Shown here: positions 26,732 to 29,893 of the stretch, piece by piece
How the letters are laid out: every line of letters begins with the position of its first letter
Numbering within the stretch: the stretch's first letter is position 1
Assembly (NCBI RefSeq): GCF_004217615.1
Contig: NZ_SHLD01000001.1
Coordinates: 3,906,001-3,970,000, forward strand
From: Micromonospora kangleipakensis
GTDB lineage: Bacteria; Actinomycetota; Actinomycetes; Mycobacteriales; Micromonosporaceae
DNA: 64,000 nucleotides
Direction of reading: 5' to 3'
Notes under the pieces: model-generated
What the model saw: the letters and a program-made list of their open reading frames with translations, nothing else
What the model was told of the DNA's origin: nothing
The model's database searches: none
Program-made: the position numbers and the translations under genes

Positions 26732-26796
26732 CGAGGGTCGTCACCGGTCCGGGGCGTCGACGGCGGGCTGGGGCCAACCACCGAGGCAGAAATACG

Positions 26797-26843
26797 GGCC
26801 ACGCAGCGCGCCGCCGGACTGTCCGCGGTTACGCTGCGTGGCC
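26797..26843. repeat. 12-bp inverted repeat with 23-nt loop
   Basis: GGCCACGCAGCG at 26797-26808 and its exact complement CGCTGCGTGGCC at 26832-26843. About 65 nt past the alcohol dehydrogenase stop: a terminator hairpin or a remnant element end. Confidence 0.55.
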
Positions 26844-27051
26844 GGGCGGGCAGCTCGTCGGCGGGACGGAGCCACCGGGCCCGACCGACGACGACCTGCC
26901 GCGCCGTGCTCCCTCCGGCCACCTGCGGCCGACGTCGCGCCCCCGTTCCTCGCCACGTCCTCCGGAGGCCGCCGGGGGAGCGCCCTGGCATCACGTCGTG
27001 CCAACCCCGAACGGGCGTGGCCACGGCGGTTGCCAAAGGCGGTCGTAATCG

Positions 27052-27063
27052 TACGCATGCGTA
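27052..27063. promoter_or_regulatory. Perfect palindrome, candidate operator of the HTH cassette
   Basis: TACGCATGCGTA, a 12-bp dyad 76 nt upstream of the HTH regulator start, next to a TTGATT (27082-27087) with TAAACG 18 nt later that could be -35/-10. Autoregulation by the downstream HTH protein is inferred. Confidence 0.35.
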
Positions 27064-27138
27064 AAGTGGAGCTGTCAATGCTTGATTCCGGTTCGGGCTC
27101 TCGTGTAAACGTTGGCTTCCGCCGCGCGAGGAGTCCCC

Positions 27139-27606
27139 ATGCCTGAAGCCCCCGAGCCACCTGGCGACACGTTCGCCGAGCGTCTCGACTGGCTGTTCCG
27201 CACCTCCCGGGATCCGGCCGGCAGGCCGTACAGCGTCCGGTACGTGGCCACCGAGCTGACCCGCCGTGGCTGCCGGATCTCCCACACCCATCTGAGCAAC
27301 CTGCGGCAGGGGCGGGCCCCCGACCCGCGGCGGTCCGTCGTGGACGCCATCGCCGGCTTCTTCGGGCGACCGCCCGCCTTCTTCGCCGAGCAGGCCGGCA
27401 GCCAGGACGAGGGTGACCTCGTCCACGCCCTGGCCGATCCGCACATCAAGCAGGTCGCCATGCGGCTGGCCGACGCCCGGCTGTCACCCGAGGGGCACGC
27501 GGCGGTGGTAGCGATGATCGAGCAGGTGCAACGGCTGGAGGCCGCGGCGCGCCGCCGCCGGGACGACCAGCGGCACGACCTCGAACGGTCCGCCGCCGGT
27601 GACTGA
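27139..27606 (+). CDS. HTH (XRE-like) regulator of the zincin/MAB_1171c cassette
   Basis: 155-aa DNA-binding protein. An EspR/XRE-like N-terminal HTH (residues ~12-85: AERLDWLFRTSRDPAGRPYS, ISHTHLSNLRQGRAPDP, VDAIAGFFGRPPAFF) is followed by a helical C-terminal part (LADARLSPEGHAAVVAMIEQ) of the type that mediates dimers or effector sensing. ATG with GAGGAG upstream. Overlaps the next gene by 8 nt, first of four overlapping genes. Likely regulates the cassette and perhaps responds to the peptidase, as XRE/ImmA pairs do; not demonstrated for this family. Confidence 0.88.
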   Translation: MPEAPEPPGDTFAERLDWLFRTSRDPAGRPYSVRYVATELTRRGCRISHTHLSNLRQGRAPDPRRSVVDAIAGFFGRPPAFFAEQAGSQDEGDLVHALADPHIKQVAMRLADARLSPEGHAAVVAMIEQVQRLEAAARRRRDDQRHDLERSAAGD

Positions 27607-28063
27607 CGTCCTGGCGCCCGGGCACCGAGCGGTCACCCCGGGCTGCGTACGCCTGGACCGGTGGTGGCGGCTCGGCGGGACCGCCCCGTGGTGTCGCGGC
27701 TCCACCGCGGACCACATCCTGGTCGGGTCGCCGGGTCCGAGCCTGCACCGGGACCATCTCGCCCTGCACGGCGTCGGGCACATGGTCTTCGGCCACGTCG
27801 GTCACCCGGCGGTCGCGCAGGGCCTGCGTGGCGTGCTGGACGGTGCCGACCTGGCGGCCCTGCGCGAGCGGTCGACGCGGGTCGTCTACACGCCCGACGA
27901 GGAGTGGCAGGCCGAGGTCTTCGCCACCCGGGTGCGGCAGCTGGCCGTCGTCGCGCGCCCCGGCCCACCCGCCGGCGCGGAGCGGGTGCTGGCGAACCCT
28001 GCCACGGTGCTCGAACACCGGCCACGCCGGCCGCGGTCGACGGGAGAAGGCGATGCGACGTAG
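27599..28063 (+). CDS. ImmA/IrrE-like zincin-fold protein lacking the catalytic Glu
   Basis: 154-aa protein. The zinc-site helix reads HLALHGVGHMVFGH: both His (57 and 61) are kept but the HEXXH Glu is Gly. The third ligand helix is present as EEWQAEVFATRV. This indicates a zinc-binding but inactive peptidase homologue. The C-terminal ~35 residues are Pro/Arg-rich. It overlaps the HTH gene by 8 nt and the next zincin by 11 nt. It may act as a regulator or chaperone-like partner of the active paralogue. Alternative: a decayed gene, though codon use is normal. Confidence 0.8.
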   Translation: MTDVLAPGHRAVTPGCVRLDRWWRLGGTAPWCRGSTADHILVGSPGPSLHRDHLALHGVGHMVFGHVGHPAVAQGLRGVLDGADLAALRERSTRVVYTPDEEWQAEVFATRVRQLAVVARPGPPAGAERVLANPATVLEHRPRRPRSTGEGDAT

Positions 28064-28580
28064 GAGCGCCCTCGGCGACCTGCGGGACCAGTCCGAGCGA
28101 CTCCTGGCCGCCCTCGACCTGCCCGCGACGTTCACCTTCGCCGAGCTGCACGACCGGATCGAGCGCCGCCGGGGCCGCCCGGTGCACCTGATCGCCCAAC
28201 ATCTGCCGGCGCTCGCCCCGCACGGCCTGTGGGTGGCCGGCGAGTTCGCCGACTACGTGTTCTACGACGCCAGCGCCAGCAAGGTACGGCAGAGCCTGAT
28301 CATCGGCCACGAGTACGGGCACATGATGTTCGACGACGTCTCCGTGCCGGGCGACCTCGACCAGCTCGCGGCCATGTTGATGCCGGCGGTGGATCCGTCC
28401 GTGCCGCAGATCATGCTGGCCCGCAGCGGGTACGACGAACCGGTCGAACGCCGGGCCGAGATCTTCGGGACCGTCGCGGTGCAGCGCGCCGAGTCCTGGT
28501 CGGAGATTCCGGCCACGACGCCGGCGGACCCCGAGGTCTCCGCCCGGCTGATCGCCACGCTGGAAGGCCGGTGGCCCTGA
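28053..28580 (+). CDS. ImmA/IrrE-like zinc metallopeptidase
   Basis: 175-aa protein. N-terminal helical part (LRDQSERLLAALDLPATFTF), then a core with VLFY-type strand (YVFYDASASKVRQSLIIG), the intact HEYGH motif (His86, Glu87, His90) and third ligand in VERRAEIFGT (about Glu136). No signal peptide, so cytosolic. By analogy with ImmA and IrrE/PprI it may cleave the HTH repressor on a signal, but the substrate is unknown. It overlaps the following membrane protein by 1 nt (TGATG). Confidence 0.87.
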   Translation: MRRRSALGDLRDQSERLLAALDLPATFTFAELHDRIERRRGRPVHLIAQHLPALAPHGLWVAGEFADYVFYDASASKVRQSLIIGHEYGHMMFDDVSVPGDLDQLAAMLMPAVDPSVPQIMLARSGYDEPVERRAEIFGTVAVQRAESWSEIPATTPADPEVSARLIATLEGRWP

Positions 28581-29857
28581 TGTCGGGGATCGTCCCCGTC
28601 GCCATGGTCGTCGTACCGCTGGCCTGCTGGGGGATGAGCCTCTACAAGCTGCGCGATCTGGCCCGCGATCCCGGCAACCGACCGCTGCGCGCGCTCTGCG
28701 TGGCCCTGTGGTCGATCACCCTTGCGCTCACCGTCCAGCCGGTCGGGCCGTGGCTCGACCAGCGCCTGGGCGTGCTGGACGTGGCGCGGCTGACCGGCAA
28801 CTGCCTCACCCTGGTCTGTGTCACCGCGGGGCAGGCGTTCCACCTCTACATGACGGGCACGGACGCCGCCACCGAGCGGCGCGTCCGACGGCGCTCGGTG
28901 CTCCTCGCGATCGCCGTGGCCACGATGATCGTCCTGTTCATCCGCACGCCGCCCGCGGCCGACCTGGCCGATCCGCGCGTGCTCTCCCGCGCCTACTACG
29001 CCGAACCGTTCGACGCCCCGTGCCTCTACGTGTACCTGGCCTACCTGGGCTGGTCGCTCGCGCAGATGGCGCTCCTGGCAAACCGGTACGCCGGCATCGC
29101 CCACCGGCCGCTGCTCCGCTTCGGACTCCGGCTGATCACCGTCGCCGCGATGTGGGGGCTGCTGTACGTCGCGGGCAAACTGGTCGCCGTCGTCGCGGGG
29201 GTGTTCCAGCCGGGCCTCGTCCCGGCCGTCGACTCGCTGGTGATCCTCTGCTTCACCACCTCGATCCTGCTGGCGCTGATCGGCTCCACCATCCCGTCCT
29301 GGGGGCCGCTGGTGGGTCTGTACCGGCTGTGGGCGTGGGCGGGTGCGCTGCGCGACTACTACCGGCTCCATCCGCTGTGGCGGCGCATCCACGCGGTGCT
29401 GCCGCAGATCGCGCTTCTCCCGCCGCCGTCCGGGCTGCGGGGCTTCCTCTCCGTCGCCCGGGACGCCTCGCTGCGGCGGGTCAGGATCACCGTGGAGATC
29501 CTCGACGGGTACGCGGGCCTGCGGCCGTGGATGTCGGCGGAGGTGGCCGCGGCGGCCCGGCGGGTGGCGCGCGAGCAGGGCCTCCCGGTCGAGGAGCAGG
29601 CCGTGGTCGTCGAAGCCGCGGTGATCGGGGCGGCGCTGCGCGCCCGGCGGCAGGGCGGATCCGCCGCCGTGCCCGGAGATCCGGCCGTGGAGGTGCCGTT
29701 CCAGGACCCGAAGGCCGGTGACCTCGGCGCGGCTGACCAGGTGACCTGGCTGGCCCGGGTCGCCCGGGCGCTCGCCACGCCGACGGTCGAGATGATCATC
29801 GCGCGGGCCGCGCCGCCGGTCGGCATGGGGACGCCGGGACCCGCCGGGCGGCCGTAG
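28580..29857 (+). CDS. MAB_1171c-type seven-helix membrane protein with C-terminal cytoplasmic domain
   Basis: 425-aa protein of the family annotated MAB_1171c putative transporter. About seven membrane helices in residues 1-235 (e.g. VPVAMVVVPLACWGMSLY, LITVAAMWGLLYVAGKLVAV) arranged like a 7TM sensor, then a soluble helical domain of ~190 residues (LHPLWRRIHAVLPQIAL, RVRITVEILDGYAGLRPWM, DQVTWLARVARALATPT), similar to DUF6545 as I recall. No transport motif is visible; a receptor/signalling role fits as well. The last gene of the HTH-zincin cassette. Confidence 0.87.
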   Translation: MSGIVPVAMVVVPLACWGMSLYKLRDLARDPGNRPLRALCVALWSITLALTVQPVGPWLDQRLGVLDVARLTGNCLTLVCVTAGQAFHLYMTGTDAATERRVRRRSVLLAIAVATMIVLFIRTPPAADLADPRVLSRAYYAEPFDAPCLYVYLAYLGWSLAQMALLANRYAGIAHRPLLRFGLRLITVAAMWGLLYVAGKLVAVVAGVFQPGLVPAVDSLVILCFTTSILLALIGSTIPSWGPLVGLYRLWAWAGALRDYYRLHPLWRRIHAVLPQIALLPPPSGLRGFLSVARDASLRRVRITVEILDGYAGLRPWMSAEVAAAARRVAREQGLPVEEQAVVVEAAVIGAALRARRQGGSAAVPGDPAVEVPFQDPKAGDLGAADQVTWLARVARALATPTVEMIIARAAPPVGMGTPGPAGRP

Positions 29858-29893
29858 CGGCGTCTCCCCTGGTGGACGGCGTGGGTCGTACCG

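Follow-up and report, generated by a model that had tools for sequence, protein, structure and literature searches.

We analysed 64,000 nucleotides (nt) of the Micromonospora kangleipakensis genome (contig NZ_SHLD01000001.1, positions 3,906,001 to 3,970,000; this whole stretch is the window), which carry a cassette of four genes, g1 to g4. Three of them, predicted to encode a helix-turn-helix (HTH) protein (g1), an ImmA/IrrE-type zincin (g3) and a seven-transmembrane (7TM) protein of the MAB_1171c family (g4), constitute a well-supported and widespread actinobacterial module. We give about even chances to the reading that g1, g3 and g4 act as a transmembrane, protease-relayed transcription switch, of which computation supports the order of the genes, their co-occurrence and insertion as one unit, the conservation of the repeats, the predicted folds of g3 and g4 and the degeneracy of the fourth gene, g2. 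The features of the locus, in window positions and with protein lengths in amino acids (aa), are:

27139..27606, plus strand: g1, HTH DNA-binding protein, proposed repressor and protease substrate, 155 aa.
27599..28063, plus strand: g2, degenerate zincin (HGVGH), 154 aa, GTG start, with a 53-residue internal loss relative to P0065.
28053..28580, plus strand: g3, ImmA/IrrE-type zincin with HEYGH (H86, E87, H90), E132 and E136, 175 aa.
28580..29857, plus strand: g4, MAB_1171c-family 7TM protein with a cytoplasmic DUF6545 domain, 425 aa.
26733..29858, plus strand: inserted unit of control region and g1 to g4, between alcohol dehydrogenase and lipid kinase, set by homology breakpoints in relatives G022, G009 and G010.
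26986..27003, no strand: distal operator-like inverted repeat TGGCA-N8-TGCCA, kept in 7/7 four-gene loci.
27018..27035, no strand: proximal operator-like repeat TGGCC-N8-TGCCA, in the same form in 4/7 four-gene loci.

As an earlier sequence-only reading of this DNA had described, the four open reading frames (ORFs) lie on one strand and overlap by 8, 11 and 1 nt (g1/g2, g2/g3 and g3/g4). They are preceded by a gene-free region of 407 nt (26732-27138) with palindromes, in which 12 inverted pairs were counted and one repeat pair proved to be conserved in relatives.

Co-occurrence beyond close relatives, the check that had been set beforehand, was found in several genera. We gathered 112 stretches by g4 alone; their sources were relatives, samples of the class and the phylum, and five of the nine plasmid records with a match. 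They contained 121 distinct g4 matches, 117 of which had at least 250 aa (window excluded). An HEXXH zincin adjoined g4 on the same strand in 100 of the 117 loci, and all 100 adjacent frames carried HExxH. A g1-type HTH gene was located upstream in 70 loci, and HTH and zincin occurred together in 67. Besides Micromonospora, the hosts included Streptomyces, Amycolatopsis, Mycobacterium, Nonomuraea and others, and the MAB_1171c family exceeded its cut-off in 18/61 relatives, 41/296 class genomes, 9/296 phylum genomes and 0/14 control genomes. Within the M. kangleipakensis genome, searched as one contig of 7.27 Mb, g4 was the sole match to this family. Across 68 three-gene loci, the protein distances of g1, g3 and g4 correlated at 0.76, 0.67 and 0.81 (largest of 999 permutations, 0.18); since shared genome descent contributes to this correlation, it is evidence of joint inheritance rather than of contact. 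The four-gene form has a narrow distribution. Specifically, a close g3 (71-100% identity) was present in 7 of 160 genus genomes, and g2 lay between g1 and g3 in all seven, window included. Named carriers were M. craterilacus, M. chokoriensis, M. parva and Micromonosporaceae KJ-029, and the Streptosporangium, Nonomuraea and Amorphoplanes relatives had a single zincin only. Separately, two complete HTH-zincin-7TM units stood in tandem in one genome (L117 and L120), and the plasmid of Streptomyces sp. NBC_01431 carried a class II lanthipeptide gene set (L065:1-2618) directly upstream of such a unit.

The module sits as a discrete insertion at 26733-29858, moving as a unit. It was absent from this site in G022, G009 and G010, where the alcohol dehydrogenase and lipid kinase genes adjoin. 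Homology to these genomes ended at 26732, one base past the dehydrogenase stop codon, and resumed at 29859 (29866 in G010), just past g4; G014, a fourth relative whose dehydrogenase match was partial, was left out of the comparison. At the same site, G010 has a frame for a 104-aa protein that by eye is GNAT-like (Gcn5-related N-acetyltransferase), and in G022 and G009 a long frame runs on the minus strand. The position between the two genes may be a general insertion site. A phage origin of g4 was rejected, as no match was found among phage records at 1e-5.

The description of g4 as a 7TM protein with a cytoplasmic helical domain held. It matched NF042915 (the MAB_1171c family) with 205 bits (cut-off 100) and PF20182 (DUF6545) with 100.3 bits (cut-off 24.4), and its structure model (predicted local distance difference test score, pLDDT, 90) presented seven long N-terminal helices and a sizeable cytoplasmic helical C-terminal part, which takes up about residues 247-425. 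The fold matches listed for this model were G protein-coupled receptors (GPCRs) or GPCR-like designs, with no transporters, and the seven-helix bundle had a GPCR-like arrangement. By its predicted fold, g4 would work like a GPCR-like 7TM receptor, with no family membership claimed, and the receptor role proposed earlier gains support from the modelled bundle. That g4 is instead a transporter, with g1 and g3 only controlling the expression of g4 or of linked enzymes, is unlikely, although it is the alternative that fares best. It draws on the NCBIfam family name 'putative transporter', which is also the plasmid annotation of g4, and on excerpts of a study in which a MAB_1171c knock-out of M. 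abscessus formed about half the biofilm, read as transport by its authors (PMC8707978). The same excerpts give a cefoxitin minimum inhibitory concentration (MIC) of 4 in the knock-out versus 16 in the parent, a value common to several other mutants of the same table; the MIC values thus indicate no substrate (PMC8707978). Neither the fold matches nor the cytoplasmic helical domain speaks for transport. Although g4 is a member of NF042915 and PF20182 by curated cut-offs and NF042915 is named for a transporter, the predicted fold and gene context fit a receptor better.

Window g3 matched no Pfam model at E <= 1, PF06114 included, so its ImmA/IrrE-type label was given by fold and motif. Its predicted fold was IrrE-like, H86, E87, H90, E132 and E136 were invariant in 31/31 close relatives, and 22 of these matched Peptidase_M78 at E <= 0.1 (best 2.6e-5). 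Fold prediction, motif and relatives point to an ImmA/IrrE-type zincin that is plausibly active. We consider it improbable, and slightly more so than a transporter, that g3 serves as a ligand sensor and not as a protease, with a metabolite in the zincin cavity altering DNA binding by g1 and g4 delivering or reporting that metabolite. The model for such a sensor is MtPrpR, described in excerpts of PMC6765138 as an IrrE-like fold joined to a DNA-binding domain; MtPrpR, however, has lost HEXXH and is fused to its HTH, whereas g3 is a protein of its own that retains HEXXH, and the HExxH found in 100/100 adjacent zincins and 31/31 close g3 relatives argues for catalysis. The same genome carries a second ImmA-like gene with HELSH (L176:5277-6083), and no MAB_1171c gene was found in the surrounding 12-kb stretch.

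The earlier claim of two ImmA/IrrE-like zincins stood for g3 but not for g2. Alignment of ten g2 copies revealed HG[IV]GH in place of HEXXH in all of them, while both histidines and two downstream glutamates were retained, and for this reason g2 is read as a predicted conserved pseudoprotease. Two working zincins were ruled out, as g2 lacks the catalytic glutamate in 10/10 copies and is shortened in the window. Full-length homologues in the alignment had 201-209 aa. Compared with P0065, its closest homologue, the window copy lacks 53 residues through an internal, in-frame loss; according to the alignment with g3, the missing block comprises helices 1 and 2 and strand 1 of the fold. A wrong start was rejected as the cause, since the upstream frame has stops and the missing part is internal. 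Probably, g2 is decaying in this genome. An N-terminal GCVRL..WW motif without a counterpart in g3 occurred in 10/10 aligned copies, and the shortened window g2 retains it despite the loss of the N-terminal part of the fold. In the FastTree phylogeny, 11 g2 entries formed one clade (support 1.0) that was not sister to g3; its nearest relative was one zincin of another genome (L100, support 0.93), with weak deeper nodes (0.42-0.71). A recent tandem copy of g3 was consequently not favoured, and g2 is a Micromonospora-clade extra to the module.

For g1, the proposed HTH regulator, the outcome was mixed: the gene in its place was annotated HTH/XRE in 4/5 plasmid records, but the match of g1 to Pfam HTH_31 was weak (E 0.007; 17.1 bits, below the cut-off of 27). 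The g1 alignment comprised 18 proteins. Upstream of g1, TGGCA-N8-TG[CA]CA lay at about 145-155 nt in 7/7 four-gene loci, and TGGCC-N8-TGCCA followed about 30 nt beyond this distal repeat in 4/7, being degenerate in the other three. The exact tandem pair occurred at one place in the whole genome, and with up to three mismatches the pattern gave 6 strand matches at 4 places versus 2 in the control; the repeat places L201 and L202 were examined by ORF lists only. Conserved upstream of g1 and exact at one genomic place, the repeats fit local autoregulation through a predicted operator. A genome-wide regulon was not seen, either with this pattern or in the count of single repeats given below. Another inverted repeat (26797-26843), with 23-nt arms that are 78% complementary and 1 nt apart, lies within the insert directly after the alcohol dehydrogenase and is possibly a terminator.

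In the proposed switch, g1 would bind the tandem TGGCA/TGCCA repeats that precede its own gene and repress the operon. The GPCR-like bundle of g4, with its N-terminus outside, would sense a small, probably lipophilic ligand or the membrane state, and its cytoplasmic DUF6545 domain would activate the g3 protease; g3 would then cut g1 in its C-terminal helical part. This would derepress the operon and also, where other genomes have one attached, an enzyme gene (PAP2-like, P450 or flavin adenine dinucleotide (FAD) oxidoreductase). The clade-specific, inactive paralogue g2 may have modulated g3 or g1 through competition and would be decaying here. We infer the ligand, the activation of g3 by g4, the cleavage of g1, the repression and the role of g2. 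The 7TM gene is a neighbour in most loci and is inherited jointly, which suggests entry of the trigger through the membrane.

Several observations weigh against this switch. Among the 117 g4 loci, 17 had no adjacent zincin and 47 no recognised g1-type HTH; the zincin-less loci included distant DUF6545 proteins, the second g4 of tandem pairs, solitary g4 and a few HTH-only cases, so that HTH and g4 stand together without a zincin in some (L116, L118). The best Foldseek E for g4 was only 0.067, none reaching 0.001, and no sequence in PDB matched g4 at E <= 1. Shuffles yielded 0.004-0.024 per region, a count made after the repeat had been chosen by eye from the alignment, and the single repeat CTGGCA-N8-TGCCA was not enriched genome-wide (4 strand matches versus 13 in the reversed control). 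To these is added the share of common descent in the distance correlation.

The genes that follow g4 varied. Of 44 downstream genes with a gap of at most 120 nt, 35 were scanned and 9 left out. PAP2 was matched by nine at E <= 0.001, those printed singly falling under the Pfam cut-off; further matches were to FAD_oxidored (six), P450 (three), amidase (two), MPAB (two) and short-chain dehydrogenase (two). A P450 was annotated directly after g4 in 3/5 plasmid records. A constant output gene was thus rejected, and the varying linked genes are consistent with a sensor that stays the same while its outputs change. The window insert has no attached enzyme gene; the lipid kinase that starts 40 nt downstream is part of the original locus. 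The other four-gene loci had neighbours that differ from those of the window; L177 and L180 shared an upstream neighbour, and L174, L178 and L179 a downstream membrane-protein gene, of which the copy L045 gave a weak PAP2 match. A zincin subfamily with HE[LIV]WH (L125, L129-L135 and similar), in part without a recognised g1-type HTH, was seen to precede genes with FAD-oxidoreductase matches. The sequence-only reading had also considered a conflict role, which was not supported: a conflict or toxin-antitoxin module spread on mobile DNA, with g1 as antitoxin-like repressor and g3 and g4 as the harmful part, is the least probable alternative, since against the 'toxin' annotation of the zincin in 3/5 plasmid records (hypothetical in 2/5), the insertion of the unit and weak capP matches in 18/31 g3-family members (best E 1.7e-4) stand the absence of a convincing defence-model match for the four window proteins (only REase_II, E 0.075, for g4), downstream genes scanned as oxidoreductases, PAP2-like proteins, amidases and similar, and the lack of g4 in the phage records at 1e-5.

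A wider proposal, which we hold tentatively and at somewhat less than even odds, is that MAB_1171c proteins are GPCR-shaped actinobacterial receptors signalling through a cytosolic zinc protease that destroys a transcription regulator, a route spread as a three-gene unit whose output enzymes can be exchanged, and that in a single branch of Micromonospora a conserved pseudoprotease keeping the metal-ligand positions was added as a modulator. With an HTH/ImmA switch wired to a 7TM protein, actinomycetes would have a protease-relayed way to respond to extracellular molecules, beside oxidoreductase and PAP2-like genes, and, if true, this route would stand beside two-component and one-component sensing. 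The receptor reading would also assign a role to a family whose sole name at present is 'putative transporter', and, if the GPCR-like fold holds, g4 would offer a bacterial comparison for receptor architecture.

In the open-licence PubMed Central (PMC) literature, with subscription papers and preprints outside this scope, we found no mention of DUF6545, and MAB_1171c was named only in PMC8707978; the titles and abstract starts of the papers matched gave no description of the HTH-zincin-7TM unit. Among known systems, excerpts of PMC10233336 describe ImmR/ImmA, CapH/CapP and DdrO/IrrE as pairs in which a protease cleaves an HTH protein, with DNA damage as the common trigger. The present module resembles ImmR/ImmA, repressor and protease of an integrative and conjugative element (ICE), in having an HTH gene and then an ImmA/IrrE-type HEXXH gene on one strand; it differs in the 7TM gene that follows and in a zincin sequence far from the Pfam M78 model, ICE genes having been looked for in the near neighbours. 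In the Deinococcus DdrO/IrrE system, IrrE answers DNA damage according to the same excerpts (PMC10233336), whereas here a membrane protein is co-inherited. Unlike CapH/CapP of the cyclic oligonucleotide-based antiphage signalling system (CBASS), the pair lies next to a 7TM gene, with an alcohol dehydrogenase and a lipid kinase as the next genes, and not beside CBASS genes, and the four module proteins gave no CBASS match. BtsS, as presented in excerpts of PMC10653868, is likewise a bacterial seven-helix membrane sensor with a cytoplasmic output; its output is a histidine kinase, whereas g4 had no kinase match among the Pfam and NCBIfam models searched and stands beside a protease gene. Altogether, the module reads as a variant of the HTH/ImmA switch, possibly with a GPCR-shaped sensor.
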